A stretch of DNA of 64,000 bases from Opitutaceae bacterium EW11 (GTDB taxonomy: Bacteria > Verrucomicrobiota > Verrucomicrobiia > Opitutales > Opitutaceae). Shown piece after piece: positions 53,274-64,000 of this stretch. The notes beneath the pieces were generated by a model that worked only from the letters and a program-made list of their open reading frames with translations, did no database searches and was not told the DNA's origin. The stretch spans positions 496,001 through 560,000 of the forward strand of contig QAYY01000003.1 in NCBI GenBank assembly GCA_003054665.1. Direction: 5' to 3'. The position numbers and the translations under genes were made by a program. The first letter of the stretch is position 1. Every line of letters starts with the position of its first letter.

Positions 53274-54083
53274 TTAACCCGCCTTGGCCATCAACCGATC
53301 GCTGTTTTCCAGGCGGCCGAGCAGGCGAAGCAGCCCGTCGAGAATCGTCAGCGGGTGGGGCGGGCAACCGGGGATGTAGAGGTCGACTGGCACGACCGAG
53401 CCGGCGCCGTTGAGGATTTCGGGATGGCCGATGAAAGGTCCGCCGGAGATGGCGCAAGCGCCGACTGCGATCACGATCTTCGGGGCGGGCACTGCGTCCC
53501 AGGCCTTTTTCAGCGCGAGCTCCATGTTGCGCGAGACGGTGCCGGTGACGAGCAGGCCGTCGGCGTGGCGCGGAGAAGCGACGTACGAGATTCCGAAGCG
53601 GCTCAGGTCCCAACCGATCGTGCCGAGCACGTTGACGTCGGCTTCGCAGGCTCCGCAGCCGCCGGCGCTCACTTGGCGCAGCCGCAGGGAACGGCCAAAC
53701 AGCTTGCGCAGCTTCTCGTCGAGCGCCGCGGCGAGCCGAAGCTCCTCCTGCCCGGGAGCGCCGAGGAGCAGGTCCTCGCGTTTGCGCACGGCCATGCGGT
53801 GATCGTTGGTCTGCTGGATCGCGCCGGGTTCGCAGGCTTCGACACACGCTTTGCAGAAGAGACAGCGCCCGAGATCGAGCTGGATGGGGCCCCCGGGAAT
53901 GCGTCCGATCGCCTGCGTCGGGCACGCCGGAATGCAGTCGCTGCAGCCGCCGGCGCACTTCGAGGCGTCGACCCGGAGCGCGCCGCCATGGCGATCGGGC
54001 AGAGGGGGCGGAGCGGCGTGCGGATACGCCATGGTTTCGCAGCCGCGCTTCAGCCGATGGGTGAGAGTATCGAGAACGAACAT
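53274..54083 (-). CDS. Ehr complex small subunit fused to a 2[4Fe-4S] ferredoxin domain (HycG/NuoB-like)
   Basis: Predicted 269-residue peripheral subunit on the cytoplasmic face of the membrane complex. Residues 35-95 are a ferredoxin domain with Cys43/47/50/54 and Cys74/77/80/84, two [4Fe-4S] sites as in HycF/HyfH; the first has one extra residue (C-x3-C). Residues 130-245 are NuoB/HycG-like with Cys143, Cys146, Cys210 and Cys240 (GGCGAC, GACAISGG, IPGCPP), ligands of the N2-type proximal cluster. The fusion puts the whole electron wire on one polypeptide. It is the last gene of the operon, 21 bp after the large-subunit gene. A separate electron-input subunit is not seen. Confidence 0.9.
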   Translation of the reverse strand: MFVLDTLTHRLKRGCETMAYPHAAPPPLPDRHGGALRVDASKCAGGCSDCIPACPTQAIGRIPGGPIQLDLGRCLFCKACVEACEPGAIQQTNDHRMAVRKREDLLLGAPGQEELRLAAALDEKLRKLFGRSLRLRQVSAGGCGACEADVNVLGTIGWDLSRFGISYVASPRHADGLLVTGTVSRNMELALKKAWDAVPAPKIVIAVGACAISGGPFIGHPEILNGAGSVVPVDLYIPGCPPHPLTILDGLLRLLGRLENSDRLMAKAG

Positions 54084-54104
54084 ACGGGACGGTCGGAACG
54101 GCGA

Positions 54105-55586
54105 TCAGAGATCGTGGCCGCAGTACGACAGGTTGAAGCTCTTGTTGCAGATCGGGAAATCGGATACCGCCGTCCCGCGGAGCGCCAGCGCGAGGCCGGT
54201 CCAGTTGTGGAAGGACGGATCGGTGATCTTGTAGCGGCGGAACTTGCCCGCGGAGTCGGTCAGCGCGACGTGGCAGACCTCGCCGCGCCAGCCTTCCACG
54301 AGCGCGACAGCGAGGGCGTCGGGCGTGGCCGGCGGGAGTTCTGAGAAGATTTCCCCCTCGGGCGGCGCGAGCAGCTGCTCCTTGAGGAACTGCCCGGAGC
54401 GCTGAATCTCCAGCGAACGGACACGGGCGCGGGCGAAAACGTCGCCGCCCGGCCAGACCGCCACGGGCACCTGGCCGAAACGATGCCAGCCGGTGGGATG
54501 GTCGAAGCGAACGTCGCGGACGAGGCCGCAGGCGCGCGCCGCGACGCCGACGAGGCCGATCTCCGCGCCCTGACTGGCGTGGACCGTGCCGACGTTTTCA
54601 AAACGTCCGCGGACCGAGGCGGCGTCCCAGAACCAAGTCGCGGCCTGCTCCACATCCTTGAGCGCGGCGGCGAGCTTTTCGAAGAGGCGCGAGGAGCGGT
54701 CCGGATCGAGATCGTAGCCGCAGCCGCCCGGGCGGACGATGCCGCGGCTGAAGCGGTTGCCGCAGATGATGGCGGTGAGATTCAGGAAATCGCCGCGAAT
54801 CTTGCCGCACGCCGACATGGTGGGCAGAAATGCCACGTCCCCGGCGAGCGCGCCGATGTCGCCGGTGTGATTGGCGAGACGTTCAAGCTCGAGTGCAACG
54901 GCGCGGAGCCATTGGGCGCGGAGCGGCGCTTCGGTGCCGGCCAGCGCCTCGAGCACGGTGGCATAGGCGGTGGCGTGTCCCATCGTGGTATCGCCCGCGA
55001 CCGTCTCCATCTGGAACATCGTGGTGCGGTGCGGCCCACCGGGCAGCGCCCGCTCGGCGCCGCGGTGCTGATAGCCAAGGGCGATTTCGAGGTGCAGCAC
55101 CTCCTCGCCGGCGCACTGGAAGCGGAAATGGCCGGGCTCGATCACGCCGGCATGGATCGGACCGACCGCGACTTCGTGGACCTCGCGTCCATCGACGCGG
55201 AAAAACTCGCCGTTGGCGGGGGCGTCTCCGGCGATCCGGCGGACCGGCTTCAGCCAGGGATGGCCTTCCGGAACGATGCCGTGCTGTTCCCACAATTCGC
55301 GTTCGAAGAGATGGGCCTGCGGATGGGTGAGCGTCAGCGCCGGGTAACCGCCGCGGATCGGTGCGCTGCGCGCGGCGGCGAGGGTGTTGTCGGCGTCGAA
55401 GCCGACGATCGAGACCAGGCGTACGGCATCGCCGTCCGGCACGCCGAACCACGAGCAAAGGCGTCCGCCGCGGTCGAGTTCGGAACGCGTGGCCTGGAGA
55501 AACTCGGCAAGCGAGCTTTCCGGCACTTCCGACCAGGGAAGGCACGTGCCGTTGGCGAGCAGAGCGAAGGCAGTCGAGGTGCTCAT
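54105..55586 (-). CDS. Ehr complex large subunit (HycE/HyfG-like) without NiFe ligands
   Basis: Predicted 493-residue subunit. Residues 1-115 resemble the NuoC-like N-terminus and the rest the NiFe-hydrogenase/NuoD fold: EVHEVAVGPIHAGVIEPGHFRF, EIALGYQHRGAE and the closing SDFPICNKSFNLSYCGHDL. In true hydrogenases the first metal motif has C-x2-C; here it is ETVAGDT (194-200). The second, DPCxxC, is DPSFHNW near 456. With all four cysteines missing a NiFe centre cannot form, so the site may bind another small molecule or only couple electron transfer to ion pumping. The start at 55586 overlaps the preceding gene by 4 bp. Confidence 0.9.
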   Translation of the reverse strand: MSTSTAFALLANGTCLPWSEVPESSLAEFLQATRSELDRGGRLCSWFGVPDGDAVRLVSIVGFDADNTLAAARSAPIRGGYPALTLTHPQAHLFERELWEQHGIVPEGHPWLKPVRRIAGDAPANGEFFRVDGREVHEVAVGPIHAGVIEPGHFRFQCAGEEVLHLEIALGYQHRGAERALPGGPHRTTMFQMETVAGDTTMGHATAYATVLEALAGTEAPLRAQWLRAVALELERLANHTGDIGALAGDVAFLPTMSACGKIRGDFLNLTAIICGNRFSRGIVRPGGCGYDLDPDRSSRLFEKLAAALKDVEQAATWFWDAASVRGRFENVGTVHASQGAEIGLVGVAARACGLVRDVRFDHPTGWHRFGQVPVAVWPGGDVFARARVRSLEIQRSGQFLKEQLLAPPEGEIFSELPPATPDALAVALVEGWRGEVCHVALTDSAGKFRRYKITDPSFHNWTGLALALRGTAVSDFPICNKSFNLSYCGHDL

Positions 55587-57025
55587 GGCGTGGGAGTCAG
55601 TTGGACGACGGCGGCGGACCACGCGTCGCGGAGAACGGCGGGCGTGCCGATGCCCACCCAGACCGAAAGGGCCATCAGGATGAGCGCCGGAGCGATGACG
55701 CCGAAAGTCTCGGGAAACCGTTTCCCGGTGGTGCGCGACGCGGTGCGGGGCCGTCCGTCGACAATCGCGAAAACCAGGCGCGTGAGACCAAAGAAGGCGA
55801 ACAGCAGGCAGGCGAGGAACACGCCGACCGCCCACGGATGGTCGGAGGCGATGCCGGACCGCACCAGCGAGAGTTCGCTGAAGAACGGCCCGAACGGCGG
55901 GCACGCCGTCACGGCGAACAGGCCGGCGACGAAGATCCCGGCGGAAATCGGAGTGAGGGCGGACATGCCGCCGACCTCGTCCATCGTGCGGGCACCGGCG
56001 GCGCGGCGGATGTTGCCCGCGCTGAGGAAGAGCGCGCCCTTGGTCAGGCTGTTGCTCCAGACGTGGAAGAGTGAGGCCCAGATGCCCGCTCCGCCGAAGC
56101 CGGCGCCGATCACGAGGATGCCCATGTGTTCGACGCTCGAATACGCCAGCATGCGTTTGAAATCGCGGGTACCGAGGAGAAACAGGGCCGCGACGATCAT
56201 CGAGAAGAGTCCGATCACGATCAGCGTGCGGTCGGCGATCGCGCCCGAACCCGCGGCGTGAACGACGGCGCGAACGCGGAGAATCGCGGTAAACGCCACG
56301 GTCGTAACGCCGCCGGCGAGAATCGCGCCGACGATCGCCGGAGCCTCGCCGTAGGCGTCGGGCTTCCAGGTGTGCACCGGGGCGAGACCCATTTTCGTGC
56401 CGTAGCCGACGAGGATCATGACCCACGCGCTGAGCACCCACGGACGCGAGAGACCGGCGCCCTGGGACGTCAACGTCGTGAACGTCAGGTCGCCGTTACC
56501 GCCGCCGTGCAGCGAGGCGTAGCCGAGGCAGAACGAGCCGAAGAGCGAAAGCGCCACGCCGGTGCCGCCGACGAGCAGGTATTTCCAGGTCGCCTCGAAG
56601 GCGCGGGGCGTGCCGTTGAAGTGGAGCAGCGGGACGGCTGCGAGCGTCACGGCTTCCGTCGTGATCCAGAGCAGGCCGAGGTGACGCGCCTGGTGACCGG
56701 CGCTGAGTAGTCCGAGGACCATCAGCATGAGGGCCACGAAAACGCGATTGGGGCGCTCGGTGCGCAGCTGCAGGTACGAGACGGCGTAGATCGCGCAGGT
56801 GAGGAAGAGCAGCGAGACGGCCGGAAGGACCGCGCGGGCGAGCGGGTCGAACGCCAGCCACGCACCGGGTTTGACCGGCGGCGGCGCGAGCAGGAGCCAG
56901 AGCGAAAGCACCGCATGGACGAGCCCGACGATCGGCAGCAGCCAGGGCCGGGAACGCTGGTTCGGCCAGGCGGCGGCGAGGGCCGCGCCCACAAAGGGCA
57001 CCACGATGAGAAGGAGTTCTTTCAT
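55583..57025 (-). CDS. HyfF-like antiporter-type membrane subunit
   Basis: Predicted 480-residue integral membrane protein with about 14 hydrophobic segments, of the proton-conducting transporter family (NuoM/N, MrpD, HyfF). Signature stretches are WKYLLVGGTGVALSLFGSF, YGTKMGLAPVHTWKPDAYGEAP with the buried lysine used in ion translocation, and DFKRMLAYSSVEHMGILVIG. The start MKELLLIVVPFVG at 57025 overlaps the HyfE-like gene by 4 bp. It likely pumps protons or sodium ions driven by the attached redox arm. Confidence 0.9.
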   Translation of the reverse strand: MKELLLIVVPFVGAALAAAWPNQRSRPWLLPIVGLVHAVLSLWLLLAPPPVKPGAWLAFDPLARAVLPAVSLLFLTCAIYAVSYLQLRTERPNRVFVALMLMVLGLLSAGHQARHLGLLWITTEAVTLAAVPLLHFNGTPRAFEATWKYLLVGGTGVALSLFGSFCLGYASLHGGGNGDLTFTTLTSQGAGLSRPWVLSAWVMILVGYGTKMGLAPVHTWKPDAYGEAPAIVGAILAGGVTTVAFTAILRVRAVVHAAGSGAIADRTLIVIGLFSMIVAALFLLGTRDFKRMLAYSSVEHMGILVIGAGFGGAGIWASLFHVWSNSLTKGALFLSAGNIRRAAGARTMDEVGGMSALTPISAGIFVAGLFAVTACPPFGPFFSELSLVRSGIASDHPWAVGVFLACLLFAFFGLTRLVFAIVDGRPRTASRTTGKRFPETFGVIAPALILMALSVWVGIGTPAVLRDAWSAAVVQLTPTP

Positions 57026-57663
57026 TCGCGAAGGATGGTCAGTTTGCGGGTGTCCAGGGAGTCGAAGGCCCGCTGGATGCGGTCCACGATGATGCCGATG
57101 ACGAACACGCCGACGGTGAGATCGAGGAGGATGCCGGCGTCCACCAGGAGCGGCGTGGCCTTGAGGAGCAGCAGGCCGAAGAGGTAGATGCCGTTTTCCA
57201 GAATCAGGTAGCCGCAGACTTGGGAGATGGCCTTGGTCCGGCCGATCAGCATGACAAAGCCGGTGAGGACGGAGGCCAGCGCACCGGGAACGAGAAGCGA
57301 ACCCGCGTGCTCGGGCAGAAGCGGAAGCACCCGTGCCACCGCCACCGCGCCGATCGTTCCGCCCGCGCCGAGGAGAAGCGACGGAATGAAGCCGATGAAC
57401 GGTTCGATTTCGCGGTCGATGTTGGCCGCGCGCATCGCGCGCTGAAGCAACTGGGGGATCACGAAGCCTTTCACCGCGACCGTGCCGACGGCGATCGCGA
57501 GCGCGAGCCACTGGATGTGCTCCTCGATCAACAGCGGCATGACGCCGAGCACCATGCCCTGGATGGCGACGGTGCGAATGACGGACGGAAGCCGTCCGCT
57601 GCCGAGCGCCATCAGGTTGAGGCCCATGGCCAGGCCGATGAGAAGATTCAGCGTGTTGTTCAT
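57022..57663 (-). CDS. HyfE-like membrane subunit
   Basis: Predicted 213-residue integral membrane protein with about six helices, the NuoK-like subunit typical of Hyf and Ehr complexes. Characteristic is GYLILENGIYLFGLLL, containing the conserved glutamate of the NuoK fold, and IGIIVDRIQRAFDSLDTRKLTILRE at the C-terminus, close to HyfE. It overlaps both neighbours by 4 bp (ATGA), consistent with equal production of subunits. Confidence 0.9.
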   Translation of the reverse strand: MNNTLNLLIGLAMGLNLMALGSGRLPSVIRTVAIQGMVLGVMPLLIEEHIQWLALAIAVGTVAVKGFVIPQLLQRAMRAANIDREIEPFIGFIPSLLLGAGGTIGAVAVARVLPLLPEHAGSLLVPGALASVLTGFVMLIGRTKAISQVCGYLILENGIYLFGLLLLKATPLLVDAGILLDLTVGVFVIGIIVDRIQRAFDSLDTRKLTILRE

Positions 57664-58568
57664 GCTTCACCGCCTTTCCACGCCACGAGCAGGGCGAACA
57701 GGCAGAGGAGAAAAGCCATCGTCAGAAGCAGCGGCACGCGTCGGAAGGCGAAGCGTGCGAGGAGCGATTCCACCAGCCCGACGCCCACCGTCACGGCGAG
57801 CACGCCGCCTGCCAGGGCGCCGGCGGCAGCCACCGGCGAGAGTTCGCCGACGGGCAGCACGGCCTCGGTGAGGAGCAGCGCGAAAAGCAGGAGTTTCATC
57901 GATGCGCCATGCAGGATCGCCGCGAACGGCGGGCCGCTGTGATCGAGCACCATCACCTCGTGGATCATGGTCAGCTCGAGGTGCGTGTTCGGATCGTCGA
58001 ACGGCACGCGGCAGTTCTCCGCCAGCAGCACGACGAAGAGGCCCGCGCCGAGCAGGACCGCGCCGGCCCCGGCGGCCGGGGCGAGCATGGTCACGAGCGT
58101 CACGCTGCCGGTGTGGACGCTGAGGGAAAGGACTGCCGTGATCATCGCCGCCTCGGCGAGGACGGCGTAACTCACCTCGCGGGCGGTGCCCATACCTTCG
58201 AAAGCGGAGCCGGTCTCGAGCGCGGCCCAGGCGGTGCAGAAACGCGCCGTCGCAAGCAGGTAGATCAGGAGGAGAACGTCGCCGCGGAAGCTCAGGGCCG
58301 CGCCGGCCGGTCCGAGCGGCAGGAGCTGCGCCGCGCACAGCACCGCGACCCAGGCGATCGCCGGACCGGCGATGAAGCCGGGCGACGCCAGCGTGCTGAG
58401 CACGACGCCCTTTCTCCACAGGCGGGCGAGGTCGTAATAAAGCTGGAGCACCGGCGGGCCCCGCCGGCCCGCGACCCACGCCTTCACCTTGTTGATGATG
58501 CCGGGCAGTAGCGGCGCGATCAGAAGCCAGCCGGCCAGGCGAAGGACTGTTTCCAGAATCACGTTCAT
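57660..58568 (-). CDS. HyfC/NuoH-like membrane subunit
   Basis: Predicted 302-residue membrane protein with about eight helices, corresponding to NuoH (subunit 1), which connects the redox arm to the pump. The family motifs LLPGIINKVKAWVAGRRGPPVLQLYYDLARLWRKG (split here across residues 20-54), ETGSAFEGMGTAREVSY and LLAENCRVPFDDPNTHLELTMIHEVMVLD are complete, including the acidic residues of the E-channel. It overlaps neighbours on both sides by 4 bp. Confidence 0.92.
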   Translation of the reverse strand: MNVILETVLRLAGWLLIAPLLPGIINKVKAWVAGRRGPPVLQLYYDLARLWRKGVVLSTLASPGFIAGPAIAWVAVLCAAQLLPLGPAGAALSFRGDVLLLIYLLATARFCTAWAALETGSAFEGMGTAREVSYAVLAEAAMITAVLSLSVHTGSVTLVTMLAPAAGAGAVLLGAGLFVVLLAENCRVPFDDPNTHLELTMIHEVMVLDHSGPPFAAILHGASMKLLLFALLLTEAVLPVGELSPVAAAGALAGGVLAVTVGVGLVESLLARFAFRRVPLLLTMAFLLCLFALLVAWKGGEA

Positions 58569-60520
58569 TGGAAAACCTCCAGGACGAGCACCAGCCCGGC
58601 CATCGTGGCCAGACCGGCGAGTAGATATAGAATGTAGCTCTGCAGATGCCCGTGCTGCAGGCGTCGTACCGCCGTCGATACACGGAGAACCCCGCCGCCG
58701 AATGGCGCGATCACCCGCTCGAGCATGGTTTCAGGCGTGCGTTCGAGCCGGATTGACTCGAGCGGGAAAAAGCCGCGCGGACGCCGAAGCCGCTTTTCCG
58801 GCTGCAGAATCCAGAAGAACCAGCCCGACGCGATGCCCGCCAGGGAACCGCTGGTGTACTGCATCCGGGCGGTCGGCAGGGCGTAACCGCAATCCCAGGT
58901 GCCCGTGCGGGGAACCCCGCGGCGGGAGGAATACCAGGACAGCCCGATGGCTGCGACGACCGCGAGCAGCGCGATCGCGACCTGCACGGGTGTGAGCGTG
59001 GCGAGCGGCGCGGCGGGCGCGATATTCGCCCAGGCCGGATTCCACGTGCCGATGGCGCGGGAGATCGCGGGCAGGAAAAAGAGCGGCGCAAGACCGATCG
59101 CAACGCAGAGCAGGGCGAGGACGAGCATCGGCCGCCGCATGCCGGGCGTACAGTCGTGGGCGTGCCGAGCTGCCTTGGTTCTCGGCGCGCCGAGAAAGAC
59201 GATCGAGGTCGCTTTCACGAACGTCGCCAGGGCCAGCGCGCCGGTGATGGCCAGGAAGAGGGTTGCGGTCAGCGCGGCCCACGCGGTCGGTCCGCGGCCG
59301 GTCACGGAATCGAAGAGGCCGAGGTAGATCAGCCACTCGCTGACGAAGCCGTTGAGGGGCGGGAGCCCGGAGATCGCCGCGGCGCCGAGGCCGAAAAGCG
59401 CGGCCGTCCACGGCATCGTTTTCCAGAGTCCGCCGAGCCGGCTCATCTCGCGCGTGCCCGTCGAATGCAGCACCGCGCCGGCTCCGTAGAAGAGCAGGGC
59501 CTTGAACAAAGCGTGGTTCCAGACGTGGAGCAGCGCACCCGCGAGAGCGAGCTGGCCCCAGGCGGCATGGCCGTGCGACGCGCCGAGCAATGCCAGGCCG
59601 AGGCCAATGGTGATCACGCCGACATTTTCGACGGAGCAGTAGGCGAGGAGCCGCTTGAGGTCGTTTTGGGCGAGCGCGAAAGCGATGCCGAGGAGCGCGC
59701 TGATCGCGCCGATGGAAATGATCGCGGTGCCGAAGCCGGACGGCTGCGGCAGCCAGCCGGTGAACCGCATCAGTCCGTAAACGCCCATCTTGATCGCCGC
59801 GCCGGACATGATGGCCGAAACGTGGCTGGGAGCGTTGGCGTGGGCCGAAGGAAGCCAGATGTGCAGCGGAAAAAGGCCGGCTTTTACGCCGAAGCCAAAA
59901 AGCGCCACCCAGAGCAGCGGGGCCAGATCGGCACGGTCGCGGAGCGGACCGAGGTCCCAGCTACCGGTTTTGGCGGAGAGGGTGGAGAAAAAGGCGAAGA
60001 GACACACGGTGCCGACGTGCGAGGCGGCGAGGTAGAGCCAGCCCGCCGCGCGCACCTGCCGCCATCCGCGATCGAGCGTGATGAGGAAGTAGGCCGACAC
60101 GGTGAAGACCTCCCAGCCGATGAGGAAATGCAGACCGTTCGACGCCACCAGGACGCTGACCAGACTGAGCACCAGCGCGCTCCACCAGGCGCGCCCGCGC
60201 GGGGCCGAGCGCGGGTAGTGATGATCGCTCCAATACGTCAGCGAGTAGGCCGCACCCGCTCCGCCCAGCACCGAGACGAGCGCGACGAAAATCGCGCTCA
60301 GGCCGTCGAGCCGGAGATGGATCGGGTCCCCGCCGGGAGCCCAGGCGAATCTCCATTCCGCAGCCGGCGCGGCTCCGCTCAGGACGAAAACCGCCGAGCC
60401 GAGCAGGGAAACGGTTCCGACGAGTACCAGGGCAAGCCACACGCGCGGGAACTTCGGGCCAGCGACGATGCTGACCGCGAGAGCGCATGCGGCGACGAAC
60501 AGGAGAAGACCAGGCGTCAT
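58565..60520 (-). CDS. HyfB-like proton-conducting membrane subunit, copy 2
   Basis: Predicted 651-residue membrane protein (about 16 helices) of the HycC/HyfB/NuoL class. Motifs: FLIGWEVFTVSAYFLITLD, FGVKAGLFPLHIWLPSAHANAPSHVSA, NDLKRLLAYCSVENVGVITIG and SGLPPLNGFVSEWL. The C-terminal 150 residues (GTWDCGYALPTARMQYTSGS to the last helix) match those of the paralogue at 61275-63227 closely, pointing to an in-operon duplication. It overlaps the EIIA-like gene upstream and the HyfC gene downstream by 4 bp each. Confidence 0.92.
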   Translation of the reverse strand: MTPGLLLFVAACALAVSIVAGPKFPRVWLALVLVGTVSLLGSAVFVLSGAAPAAEWRFAWAPGGDPIHLRLDGLSAIFVALVSVLGGAGAAYSLTYWSDHHYPRSAPRGRAWWSALVLSLVSVLVASNGLHFLIGWEVFTVSAYFLITLDRGWRQVRAAGWLYLAASHVGTVCLFAFFSTLSAKTGSWDLGPLRDRADLAPLLWVALFGFGVKAGLFPLHIWLPSAHANAPSHVSAIMSGAAIKMGVYGLMRFTGWLPQPSGFGTAIISIGAISALLGIAFALAQNDLKRLLAYCSVENVGVITIGLGLALLGASHGHAAWGQLALAGALLHVWNHALFKALLFYGAGAVLHSTGTREMSRLGGLWKTMPWTAALFGLGAAAISGLPPLNGFVSEWLIYLGLFDSVTGRGPTAWAALTATLFLAITGALALATFVKATSIVFLGAPRTKAARHAHDCTPGMRRPMLVLALLCVAIGLAPLFFLPAISRAIGTWNPAWANIAPAAPLATLTPVQVAIALLAVVAAIGLSWYSSRRGVPRTGTWDCGYALPTARMQYTSGSLAGIASGWFFWILQPEKRLRRPRGFFPLESIRLERTPETMLERVIAPFGGGVLRVSTAVRRLQHGHLQSYILYLLAGLATMAGLVLVLEVFQ

Positions 60521-61275
60521 GATTTGGCTGCGGGCGAAGCGCCGCCCGGGGAGGCGACATCGCTCTGGGCGATCGCCTGATAGAGCTCATCGTCCGACGC
60601 GCCGCGCAGGACGGCGGCGCGCAGCGGCCCGCGGCTGAGCGCCCGGCTCAACTGGCCGAGCAGGTCGAGGTGGGCGCGAGGAGAGGGCGCGATGAAAAAG
60701 AAAAGCCGCGTGATCGGCACGTCGTCCGGCGGAGGATCGGAAAGCGGCAGCGGTTCGCGCAGGAGAATCAGGGCGAGCGAACCCGAGTCGCGCCCGAGAG
60801 CGACGCGCGTGCTGAGATGCGGAAGAGCGAAACCGTGCCCGACCGGAGCGGCGGTCACCCCGCCGGGGGCGCGAAGGCGCTGCGCGAGCAGCTGACGGAC
60901 AGGCGGCGTCGAGCCCGGAAGGCGTCCCGCCACCTGCGCGTAGATCTCCGTCACGTTCGCAATCGGCACGTCGCGCCAGATCCCGCCGGCGCGCAGCAGG
61001 GGTTCCAACCGCCAGCCGGTGGAAAACGCGGGGGTGCCTGGCGCGAGGAAGCCGGCCTGGGCGGCCAGCCCGCGGGCCGCGGCCCAGTCCGCCACCTGGG
61101 CGCGATCGAACAGCACCCGGCCGCGTTCCGGGATGTGCGGCAGCCCTTCGCTGCGTATCCAGTCTTCGACGACCTTTTCCGAAACTCCGAACGACTCAGC
61201 GATCTGGACGAGGTTCAGGTACATGGCGGGGTAGGGTTGGGTGTTTTGGGGCGTGGCTTGCGTGGGTGTGGCCAT
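60517..61275 (-). CDS. Excisionase-type HTH domain fused to a PTS EIIA(Ntr)-like domain
   Basis: Predicted 252-residue soluble regulator. Residues 18-70 form a MerR/excisionase-like DNA-binding helix-turn-helix (LNLVQIAESFGVSEKVVEDWIRSEGLP, shortened here to its core IAESFGVSEKVVEDWI). Residues 88-240 are a PTS EIIA type-2 domain with the phosphorylation motif VGHGFALPH, where His153 is kept, and FFFIAPSPRAHLDLLGQLSRAL. It probably takes phosphate from NPr or HPr and reports carbon or nitrogen status. It lies between the two HyfB-like genes, overlapping them by 1 and 4 bp. An alternative start is the ATG at 61224. Confidence 0.85.
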   Translation of the reverse strand: MATPTQATPQNTQPYPAMYLNLVQIAESFGVSEKVVEDWIRSEGLPHIPERGRVLFDRAQVADWAAARGLAAQAGFLAPGTPAFSTGWRLEPLLRAGGIWRDVPIANVTEIYAQVAGRLPGSTPPVRQLLAQRLRAPGGVTAAPVGHGFALPHLSTRVALGRDSGSLALILLREPLPLSDPPPDDVPITRLFFFIAPSPRAHLDLLGQLSRALSRGPLRAAVLRGASDDELYQAIAQSDVASPGGASPAAKS

Positions 61276-63227
61276 CAACCGACTCCAATCAGCACGAGAG
61301 CGGCCAGGAGCGCGAGCCCGGCCACGATGTATGCCAGGTAGCTTTGCACGCGCCCGTGCTGGAGGCGTCGTGCCGCGGTGGACACGTGCATGACGAGCGT
61401 CCCCGCGGGGGCGACGACATGATCGAGCACCGTCTCTGGCGTGTGTTGTTCGAAATGGGCGTGTGCAGGAAGAACCGCTTCCGGGATCTCCTTGTGCCGC
61501 GTCGGTCGGAGTATCCAGTCGAACCACTCCGTGATCGTGCTCGCGAACGAGCCGGCGGTGTACTGCATCCGCGCGTCCGGCGCGGTGTATCCGCAGCTCC
61601 AGGTCTCCGTCCGGGCGAAACCGTAGCGGTGCGCGCGCCGGGCGAGGTAGCCGGCGATCAAAAGGGCGGCGAGTGCGAGGACCAGATGGCAGAGTCCGAG
61701 CGTGAAAAGGGGCGCGGGTGCCGCGGGCGGGACGAGCCCGGGACGCCAGGCGTCCGCCGCGCGGGCGACGGCGGGCCAGAAGGCCGCGGGAGCCAGGCCG
61801 ATCGCGACGCAGCAACCCGCGAGAAGGAGCATCGGGCCGCGCATCGCCGGTCCGGCCTCGTGCGCGTGCAGCGCCGCCTCCGATCGCGGCGCGCCGAGGA
61901 AAACCACGCCGCAGACTTTCACGAAACAGGCGAGGGCGAGCGCGCCCGTGACGCCGAGGAGCACGGTGGCGGGGAGCGACGCCCACGATGCGGTCGTGTG
62001 GGAGATGGTCGCATCGAACAGGCCGAGATAGACGAGAAATTCGCTGACGAAGCCGTTGAGCGGCGGCAGGCCGGAGATCGCCGCCGCGCCGAGGCCGAAG
62101 AGCGCCGCCGTCCACGGCATCGAGCGCCAGAGTCCTCCGAGGCGGCTCATTTCGCGGGTTCGCGTGGCGTGCAGGACGGAGCCGGCACCGAGGAAGAGCA
62201 GCGATTTGAAAAGCCCGTGGTTCCAGACGTGGAGCAGCCCGCCGGCGAGCGCGAGCTGGCCCCAGGCTGCATTGCCTTCCTGGATACCGATCAGCGCGAA
62301 GCCGAAACCGATCAGGATGATCCCGATGTTCTCCACGCTGTGGTATGCGAGCAGACGCTTCAGGTCGTGCTGCCCGAGCGCGAAGGCCACGCCGAGCACC
62401 GCACTGGCGACGCCGAGCGCCGCTACGACCCAGCCCGCTTGCGACGGAACGGGATACCAGCCCGTGAAACGCACAAGGCCGTAGATGCCCATCTTGATCG
62501 TCACGCCGGAGAGGATCGCGGAGACGTGGCTGGGCGCATTGGCGTGCGCGGAGGGCAGCCAGATGTGCAGCGGAAACATGCCCGATTTGAGGCCGAAGCC
62601 GATCAGGGCGAACCAGAACAGCGGAGCCAGCTCGGGGCGGTTCAGGGCCGGGCCGAGGTCCCAGCTGCCCGTGGCCGCCGCCAGGCAGCTAAAGTAGGCG
62701 AACAGGCACAATGTCCCGACATGCGAGGCGCCAAGGTACAGCCAGCCGGCGGAGCGAACTTCCGCGCGCTGCCGATCGAGGGTGACGAGAAAATACGCGC
62801 TGAGGGTGAAGAGCTCCCACGCGATGAGGAAATGGAGACCGTTCGCGGCGATCACGACGTACTCCAGGCTGAGAAGCAGCACACTCCACCAGAAGCGTCC
62901 CGCCCGCGCCGACCGCGGGTGCTGGGCGTCGGTCCAGTAGCCGCGGCTGTAGATCGCGCCGGCGGCGCCCACGACGCTGAGCAGCGCGAGAAACAGCGCG
63001 CTCACCGCGTCGAGATGAAGATGGTCTGCCTCACCACCGAGCGAAAATCCTCCGCGCGATTCGACGGACATTCCCGTGCTGAGAACGACGGCCGCCGCGA
63101 GCGCCCCGAATACGCATCCAGCGACGACTCCCGCCAGCCACATCCGCGACAGCCAACGCGCGAACACGAGGCTGAGCGCAAGGCTGAGTCCGGAGAGGAC
63201 GATCAGAGCTGCCGGGTTCAGGAGCAT
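61275..63227 (-). CDS. HyfB-like proton-conducting membrane subunit, copy 1
   Basis: Predicted 650-residue membrane protein and first gene of the Ehr operon. It has the same blocks as its paralogue: FLIAWELFTLSAYFLVTLD, FGLKSGMFPLHIWLPSAHANAPSHVSA, HDLKRLLAYHSVENIGIILIG and SGLPPLNGFVSEFL. The lysines and histidines of the ion path are intact, so both copies look functional. The ATG at 63227 (MLLNPAALIVLSGLSLAL) begins directly on a membrane helix; an in-frame GTG at 63263 is less likely. The operon promoter should lie in 63228-63334, where I see no clear hexamers. Confidence 0.92.
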   Translation of the reverse strand: MLLNPAALIVLSGLSLALSLVFARWLSRMWLAGVVAGCVFGALAAAVVLSTGMSVESRGGFSLGGEADHLHLDAVSALFLALLSVVGAAGAIYSRGYWTDAQHPRSARAGRFWWSVLLLSLEYVVIAANGLHFLIAWELFTLSAYFLVTLDRQRAEVRSAGWLYLGASHVGTLCLFAYFSCLAAATGSWDLGPALNRPELAPLFWFALIGFGLKSGMFPLHIWLPSAHANAPSHVSAILSGVTIKMGIYGLVRFTGWYPVPSQAGWVVAALGVASAVLGVAFALGQHDLKRLLAYHSVENIGIILIGFGFALIGIQEGNAAWGQLALAGGLLHVWNHGLFKSLLFLGAGSVLHATRTREMSRLGGLWRSMPWTAALFGLGAAAISGLPPLNGFVSEFLVYLGLFDATISHTTASWASLPATVLLGVTGALALACFVKVCGVVFLGAPRSEAALHAHEAGPAMRGPMLLLAGCCVAIGLAPAAFWPAVARAADAWRPGLVPPAAPAPLFTLGLCHLVLALAALLIAGYLARRAHRYGFARTETWSCGYTAPDARMQYTAGSFASTITEWFDWILRPTRHKEIPEAVLPAHAHFEQHTPETVLDHVVAPAGTLVMHVSTAARRLQHGRVQSYLAYIVAGLALLAALVLIGVG

Positions 63228-63334: not shown

Positions 63335-63757
63335 TCAGCGACGCGCCGGTTTCGGCTTCGACGTGGATTTCACCGCGGACTTCGCGGCGGGGGCCGGCGC
63401 CGGCGGAGGTATTGGTGAATTGGATCCTGCTCCGGCCTCACCGCCGGACCACAGGAATATGCCGCAATTCGGACAAATGCCGAAGCGGCCGGGCTGCGCC
63501 AATTCGGCGACGGTTCCCGAAGGCAGCTTGAGGTGGCAGTTGCCGCAGCTCGTTCCGCTCACGTTGGCGACACTCGGAAGGTTCTTCTTCGCGCGGTCGT
63601 CGTGGTAGCGGAGAATTGAGAGAGGAAGGCGCTCCCTCAGTGCGGTGACTTGCTTGTCGAGCAACGATCGTTCGGGGCTTTCAGCTGGTAGGCGCGAGGC
63701 CTCTCTGCCGAGCCAGGACAACGTGCGCAGTTGGCTCAAAACGTCAGCGGAGTACAC
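63335..63757 (-). CDS. Small C4 zinc-ribbon protein
   Basis: Predicted 140-residue soluble protein. After a helical region (SWLGREASRLPAESPERSLLDKQVTALRERLP) comes a zinc ribbon with two CxxC knuckles, SCGNCHLKL and ICPNCGIFLW, like the C-terminal domain of the CT398/YbgI-type zinc-ribbon proteins. A Pro/Ala/Lys-rich tail closes it. The frame is open up to 63973, but upstream codons look non-coding; GTG at 63757, with AGGTGG three bases before it, is my preferred start. It lies 107 bp upstream of the Ehr operon on the same strand. Function unknown; nucleic-acid or protein binding is likely. Confidence 0.65.
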   Translation of the reverse strand: MYSADVLSQLRTLSWLGREASRLPAESPERSLLDKQVTALRERLPLSILRYHDDRAKKNLPSVANVSGTSCGNCHLKLPSGTVAELAQPGRFGICPNCGIFLWSGGEAGAGSNSPIPPPAPAPAAKSAVKSTSKPKPARR

Positions 63758-63932
63758 GGGCCACCTGATTGCATCGTGGATGCCAAAACCGAATGAGTGA
63801 CGGTAGCGTTTGGATCCCAAAGAGAAGGAAGTTTTCTGCCTCTGCAGCAGACGAAGGTGTGCCCCCCGGCGGCCGACCTGTGCGCAAAATATGCGCTCGC
63901 GCCGTGCACAATGTGCGCTCAGCCTCGCCGCC

Positions 63933-64000
63933 GTGAATCCTGCGAAAATCACCATTGCGGTTTTGGATCGCAATGCGGCCGATCTCGCGGCGCTGACGCG
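63933..64000 (+). CDS. Start of a gene cut by the window end (unidentified)
   Basis: From GTG at 63933 the frame reads as NPAKITIAVLDRNAADLAALT, a beta-strand and helix opening like that of receiver or nucleotide-binding domains, and stays open to the window end. It is divergent from the zinc-ribbon gene. Only 22 codons are visible, so neither the start nor the family is certain. Confidence 0.4.
   Translation, partial: MNPAKITIAVLDRNAADLAALT

Follow-up and report, generated by a model that had tools for sequence, protein, structure and literature searches.

A predicted EIIA-regulated, hydrogenase-related ion pump with a doubled HyfB subunit in Opitutaceae bacterium EW11

The 64,000-nucleotide stretch of contig QAYY01000003.1 of Opitutaceae bacterium EW11 analysed here (positions 496,001 to 560,000; termed the window) carries an operon for an energy-converting hydrogenase-related (Ehr) complex, in which a protein with a helix-turn-helix (HTH) and a phosphotransferase system (PTS) EIIA domain is encoded together with two copies of the antiporter-like subunit HyfB. 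Ehr complexes were reportedly treated by Marreiros et al. in 2013. We regard it as very probable that this is an Ehr pump regulated by EIIA. With less assurance, but still on balance, we favour a complex with two HyfB subunits and HyfF that has a dedicated EIIA as its phospho-switch, the type of EIIA found in the window acting by protein contact; the contact step taken singly is tentative, its chances falling slightly short of even. The parts read directly from sequence are the gene content, the loss of NiFe ligands, the linkage, an invariant histidine, two HyfB clades, and a repeat array that is present in relatives but not here.

The operon genes, in the order of transcription, are as follows.

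61275-63227, minus strand: HyfB1, antiporter-like pump subunit, first copy (650 aa from ATG; Pfam Proton_antipo_M, 168.6 bits)
60517-61275, minus strand: HTH-EIIA protein (252 aa if the ATG at 61275 is used; EIIA_2 33.7 bits, cut-off 27; HTH_17 30.5 bits, cut-off 27)
58565-60520, minus strand: HyfB2, antiporter-like pump subunit, second copy (651 aa; Proton_antipo_M, 167.2 bits)
57660-58568, minus strand: HyfC, NuoH-like membrane anchor (302 aa; NADHdh, 90.2 bits)
57022-57663, minus strand: HyfE, small membrane subunit (213 aa; place conserved in relatives)
55583-57025, minus strand: HyfF, third antiporter-like subunit (480 aa; Proton_antipo_M, 162.8 bits)
54105-55586, minus strand: HyfG-like large subunit without NiFe ligands (493 aa; Pfam Complex1_49kDa and 30kDa)
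53274-54083, minus strand: two-cluster ferredoxin domain fused to a HycG/NuoB-like subunit (269 aa; Pfam Fer4 and Oxidored_q6)

An earlier note on this DNA had named the same eight genes at 53274-63227, and open reading frames together with Pfam and NCBIfam matches confirm them, all on the minus strand. HyfE is the weakest assignment, with Oxidored_q2 (20 against a cut-off of 26.1) and the NCBIfam hydrogenase 4 membrane subunit (4.6e-20) both below cut-off. The overlaps of 1-4 bp that the note gave for all but the last gene stand in part: a 4-nt overlap is present at five junctions (EIIA/B2, B2/C, C/E, E/F and F/G), and a 21-nt gap separates HyfG from the HycG fusion, but the 1-nt overlap of hyfB1 and EIIA holds only if EIIA starts at the ATG at 61275. 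The start is probably the Met of ‘MYLN’ at 61224 (235 aa), 50 nt after hyfB1, because the frame in one related locus (L069) opens one codon before that Met and earlier residues are unconserved in related open reading frames. It should be pointed out that rows of alignments A1 and A3 were manually cut at this Met, and its invariance there is no added evidence. EIIA residues, His136 and His185 included, are numbered from 61224. Relatives keep the gene content and order at 58-88% identity per protein, and therefore the operon is not a chance assembly.

By its sequence, the operon encodes an Ehr complex, i.e. a group 4 hydrogenase relative without NiFe ligands. Ehr complexes are defined by group-4-like subunits, an antiporter-like membrane arm and missing NiFe ligands, in the passages cited (PMC6349859, PMC10284858). 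The EW11 operon shows the same features, with a group-4-like large subunit that lacks the NiFe cysteines and with antiporter-like HyfB1, HyfB2 and HyfF. The HyfG profile has its best PDB match in HycE (7z0s_E, 2.6e-45), followed by MbhL and Nqo4, and the VCGIC and DPCxxC motifs of HycE align with VAGDT and NLSYCG in the HyfG-like protein. Over 119 rows the four NiFe cysteine positions are occupied by A/S (116), T/S/A (117), S (118) and G (117), and at each of the first two a Cys is found in just one row. Cys480 and Cys489, near the pocket, are conserved (114/119 and 115/119 rows, respectively); Cys489 adjoins the last ligand position, where a one-residue alignment shift is possible. A true group 4 NiFe hydrogenase is suggested by the overall likeness to the HycE/HyfB family. 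However, the cysteine positions of both CxxC motifs are replaced and HypD (PF01924) has no match in the EW11 genome (other Hyp genes were not searched), although it is present in five of 11 genomes carrying the operon. We reject this identity as having a negligible chance, and the proposal of an Ehr-type complex in the earlier note is upheld on the same grounds.

The redox partner might be sulfane sulfur, polysulfide or a disulfide, as in the MBS/Mbx complex of Pyrococcus furiosus (6u8y; PMC7684303). According to the parts of that paper drawn on here, MBS is likewise a ferredoxin-type complex with a duplicated H-type pump subunit, no NiFe, and no equivalents of the quinone-site residues His38 and Tyr87 of Nqo4, whose roles, with that of the proton-reducing Glu21 of MbhL, are set out there. 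The EW11-type large subunit has Ile149 (117/119) and Gly198 (119/119) in place of this His/Tyr pair of complex I, and the conservation of the two cysteines near the pocket also counts in favour. On the other hand, MBS has lost the equivalent of MbhL Glu21, and a shortened loop leaves its proximal cluster with three Cys ligands (PMC7684303, same parts), whereas the EW11-type protein keeps the aligned Glu150 in 119/119 rows and the fusion protein, aligned to HycG (7z0s_G), keeps the CxxC, GAC and PGCPP cluster motifs, its proximal CxxC being as in HycG and MbhJ. In score, too, the complex matches HycE far better than MBS, and its operon differs further in including an EIIA gene and lacking genes for an Mrp-type sodium module. 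A sulfur-type partner thus appears unlikely.

The two pump copies, HyfB1 and HyfB2, are 59.5% identical and are, by their phylogeny, old paralogues. In a quick FastTree that kept 102 of 124 HyfB rows, most first copies group together in a set of 33 rows with support 96, and most second copies in a set of 39 with support 99; the first copies of L089 and L135 fall outside the first-copy set, and HyfB proteins of single-copy operons occur in both. The Glu of transmembrane helix (TM) 5 and the Lys residues of TM7 and TM12 are kept in 85 of 85 rows, and the TM8 Lys in 81 of 85. We assume the helix assignment and residue roles from the NuoL/M family. Because these residues are kept, both copies look able to pump, in keeping with the ion-pumping arm with a doubled HyfB read by the earlier note.

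The EIIA protein is PtsN-like by sequence and by predicted fold. Its model (24 sequences; mean pLDDT 88.2, pTM 0.72) has 3urr_A as the top Foldseek match (E 3.2e-6), with the PtsN structures 3urr and 1a6j first; the HTH part has its helices at 5-12 and 16-26 together with a beta hairpin, a winged-HTH-like pattern, and no HTH chain is among the 50 Foldseek matches listed. His136 and His185 are present in all 25 proteins aligned from the two EIIA types, here called canonical (with a mostly basic recognition helix) and window-type (the EW11 operon's own). In larger sets both histidines are invariant in the window-type proteins (66/66, not all independent, since several genomes occur twice, once under a G handle and once as a named contig, e.g. 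L024/L087 and L077/L181), and they are found in 48/52 and 46/52 canonical proteins. EI and HPr occur in all 11 operon-bearing genomes searched, EW11 included, and EIIC in two of them, with no EIIC match in EW11. The PTS of EW11 therefore looks regulatory and EIIA is a predicted phospho-acceptor, which bears out the link to phosphotransfer signalling that had been suggested for this operon.

The pairing of EIIA with Ehr genes is not local. Six relatives in EW11's family carry EIIA of 57-69% identity, in each case beside Hyf genes. A large-subunit search gave 80 named loci (L handles), of which 56 have EIIA in the operon, 22 are not judgeable and two lack it, so that the absence of HTH-EIIA from all related operons, which would have spoken against the earlier note, is clearly not what is found. 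Gene order before hyfC in the 56 loci is B-a-B in 24, a-B in 17 and B-a in seven (a, EIIA; B, HyfB), with two EIIA genes in six and other arrangements in two. One of the two loci without EIIA, L076, begins inside hyfF and has a second Ehr cluster behind, and its EIIA may be off the contig; the other, L119, is a clear exception, and an A1-type EIIA was not found in its genome at E 1e-5. Among 36 more divergent Verrucomicrobiota loci, picked by hand from 122 of 387 genomes matched, EIIA is found in 15 and absent from 16, and five are not judgeable. For a second phylum, the search was centred on the Desulfovibrionales genome G414; there 51 of 247 genomes gave a large-subunit match (weak matches may include other family members), and 24 of 38 fetched loci have EIIA, with weaker scores in L212, L221 and L222. 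The pairing thus recurs in two phyla, against a background of only seven EIIA_2 matches in the entire 6.4-Mb EW11 genome. Organism names are those in the records; several metagenome-assembled genomes that cluster with Verrucomicrobiota bear odd phylum labels and could be misbinned.

In five of the 24 loci of that other phylum (L204, L206, L207, L210 and L225) EIIA is outside the Ehr operon, in a small adjacent unit of its own that often includes an additional HyfB, as if the EIIA-HyfB pair had moved as a module. EIIA_2 proteins without a detected HTH also occur beside Ehr operons, at L084:1845-2342, L099:1337-2347 and L121:3729-4319 (-); that of L084 is an additional copy directly before hyfB1. 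A simple history of EIIA loss was sought on the HyfG tree, from which L024-L029, L181 and L184 were left out as repeats, and was rejected: the label needs 25 changes (0/500 shuffles as low) on a tree with long branches and 27 rows that were not judged.

The two EIIA types differ in the recognition helix. The canonical helix has a mean net charge of +0.90 and mostly Tyr20-Arg21 (48 of 52 sequences used), and the window-type helix a mean of -2.08, negative in 65/65 (of 66 sequences), with Glu/Asp20 in 61 and Gly/Asp21 in 60. Non-Ehr HTH-EIIA paralogues are intermediate (-0.17; six of eight sequences). The charge of the EIIA part runs opposite (window-type +1.76, canonical -1.38); thus the window-type EIIA part is not more acidic. 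One protein from a clade-type operon, L230, landed in the canonical class through the 44% identity cut. The window-type gene lies within the operon, between the two HyfB genes in EW11, and five loci (L078, L082, L106, L117 and L146) have an additional canonical HTH-EIIA as first gene.

Upstream of many canonical EIIA genes is a phased array of TGTCC repeats, which is likely to be their operator, a putative assignment from sequence. An unguided word-pair scan of 38 upstreams had TGTC pairs 10 bp apart among its top pairs (seven loci; shuffle maxima 4-5). Phased pairs are present in 9/18 upstreams of divergent Verrucomicrobiota, 6/25 of the other phylum and 4/6 canonical genes of EW11's clade, against 1.1%, 0.8% and 1.2% of 150-bp segments of the same loci; the six clade upstreams were not used in motif choice, and 0/2000 shuffles reach 4/6. 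The commonest TGTC/GACA spacings are 10, 20, 30 and 40 bp (24, 14, 6 and 6), and with similar upstreams collapsed a phased pair remains in 18/45 groups. The array was not found in front of 18 hyfB genes from Ehr operons lacking EIIA or upstream of eight non-Ehr HTH-EIIA paralogues. For the window type a phased pair is present in 1/56 EIIA upstreams and 0/31 operon heads at hyfB1, and the sole match, L138, looks false, its last 100 bases being free of TGTCC repeats; a conserved operator of this kind for the window type was thus rejected. A palindromic operator was likewise discarded (top palindromes in four loci, shuffle maxima 2-3). The exact double site TGTCCN5TGTCCA is at the Ehr operon in seven genomes, but the counts do not bear out that it is unique to the Ehr promoter: these genomes have 1, 2, 3, 1, 2, 10 and 4 matches, and the backward control 4, 0, 1, 0, 0, 0 and 1. 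The ten matches, against zero in the control, belong to G667 (the L082 genome) and might reflect a larger regulon or a repeat family.

These observations can be assembled into a scheme, in which the electron carrier, the ion, the phosphorylation and the contact site are the predicted parts. A reduced carrier, most simply ferredoxin, would pass electrons to the fusion protein's two [4Fe-4S] clusters, then to the proximal cluster and finally to an acceptor in the pocket that in hydrogenases is occupied by NiFe; the redox energy would drive ions through HyfC, HyfB and HyfF. Phosphate would flow from phosphoenolpyruvate (PEP) through EI and HPr to His136 of EIIA, and the PEP/pyruvate state would set the level or activity of the pump. 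Canonical relatives are probably DNA-binding switches of Ehr expression on the 10-bp-spaced TGTCC array. In window-type operons the switch may have moved inside the operon and lost features of DNA binding, a canonical head copy staying in some operons, and window-type EIIA probably works by contact with the complex. There is precedent for contact in unphosphorylated PtsN, which binds and inhibits the K+/H+ antiporter YcgO, according to the part of that study cited (PMC11808508). A bolder version, which we hold as a possibility with considerable doubt, makes EIIA a subunit that regulates the pump: having given up DNA binding, it would sit on the HyfB1/HyfB2 arm as a domain phosphorylated from PEP and gate ion pumping, and its DNA-binding ancestor would still control sister operons via the 10-bp-phased TGTCC arrays.

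Several points weigh against the scheme. EIIA is not essential to Ehr complexes, because it is absent from the 16 of 36 divergent loci noted above and from 14 of the 38 other-phylum loci. Helix charge is a weak proxy, six of 48 canonical helices being negative; Glu20 is present in five of six non-Ehr paralogues and alone proves nothing, and Arg24 is kept in 61/65 window-type helices. The array was picked by eye after the scan, with only six upstreams outside the 38-upstream choice set, the GACA of some -35-like TTGACA boxes was counted in it, and more than half of the canonical upstreams have no phased pair. Moreover, the array belongs to canonical proteins, whose binding to it is predicted, and window-type EIIA may have a different operator.

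The EW11 EIIA might instead be an ordinary local transcription factor, which binds the operon promoter by its HTH and is tuned through phosphorylation. The HTH_17 match above cut-off, the winged-HTH-like pattern seen in a model of high confidence (mean pLDDT 88) and the phased array upstream of canonical relatives all argue for this. However, the helix is acidic throughout the window type, the array is missing from its operon heads and nearly all of its own upstreams, and four of the five loci with an added canonical head EIIA have the array, as if that copy did the DNA binding. The EW11 protein thus has the HTH fold of an HTH_17 regulator but neither a basic recognition helix nor a repeated upstream site, and the term ‘DNA-binding’ applied to it in the earlier note is not sustained. 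Protein contact is favoured because the recognition helix is acidic, there is no array and the gene lies inside the operon; a role as local transcription factor seems to us rather unlikely, if still a serious rival. Less probable by far is that the pump energizes uptake of an anion (bicarbonate or sulfate), the SulP permease being part of the operon in some relatives. Of 50 judged loci, 11 have SulP with STAS as head gene, on the same strand and no more than 500 bp away (L069, a piece only, L079, L081, L099, L100, L113, L122, L126, L136, L143 and L145), and the SulP of L075 has apparently shrunk to a C-terminal remnant. Yet SulP is absent from the other 39 and from the EW11 window, it has no match at operon heads of the other phylum, and SulP substrates vary. 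With just 11 of 50 loci, SulP was discarded as a general partner.

The EIIA-regulated Ehr pump proposed here can be set beside known systems. Neither two HyfB paralogues nor an embedded HTH-EIIA, both present in the EW11 operon, is mentioned in the portions cited of the Ehr descriptions (PMC6349859, PMC10284858). EW11 EIIA shares with EIIA-Ntr (PtsN) the domain fold (3urr, 1a6j), the active-site His and a genome with a regulatory-only PTS, but it has an N-terminal HTH and is encoded inside a pump operon. PtsN-YcgO of Escherichia coli is a proposed analogue, an EIIA with phospho-dependent control of an ion antiporter (PMC11808508, in the part cited), although YcgO is a CPA1 protein and not HyfB-like, and PtsN has no HTH. 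Euo/TorI-like excisionase HTH regulators have the same HTH type and several short target boxes, but no EIIA domain, and the PTS goes unmentioned in the portion cited (PMC4989314). No report of an EIIA-Ehr link or of the array was found in the open-licence PMC literature, a scope that leaves out subscription papers, the original Ehr papers among them.

Upstream of hyfB1 is a probable head gene.

63338-63757, minus strand: small zinc-ribbon-like protein (Zn_ribbon_9, 25.8 bits, below the cut-off of 29.1)

Its GTG start at 63757 is taken from L075, and the gene recurs beside related operons (cluster c3, eight loci). A divergent NtrC-type sigma-54 response regulator adjoins it (L188:936-2294 (+), starting near window position 63936, just past the window end), with relatives in L120 and L136. 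At 63770-63785 (-), before the zinc-ribbon gene, is a sigma-54-like site, TGGCATCCACGATGCA; the same form (TGGCATN5ATGCA) is found in L136 but not before the gene in L120, the third locus with the same neighbours. A family-wide sigma-54 promoter was rejected, as two-mismatch sites in the window are rarer than chance (nine against a mean of 21) and a scan of 38 operon heads yielded little. Elsewhere, a second Ehr cluster, 36-41% similar, accompanies the first in L076, L146, L029/L184 and L073, and its place is between the first cluster's hyfF and hyfG in two of these (L076 and L029/L184). In L068, L073, L096, L127 and L129 the operon is just upstream of genes that we take to encode EF-Tu, NusG and ribosomal proteins.

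Ehr complexes are common, and the bacterial ones are described as having no known substrate or trigger, a statement made for comammox Nitrospira in the passage cited (PMC10284858). A dedicated EIIA, old enough to be found in two phyla, would mean that the cell couples the pump to its PEP/pyruvate state; for sister operons, the TGTCC array would offer a direct way to learn when they switch on. If protein contact is correct, EIIA would act as a subunit-like regulator of a pump of the complex I family. What switches an Ehr pump thus becomes a testable question.

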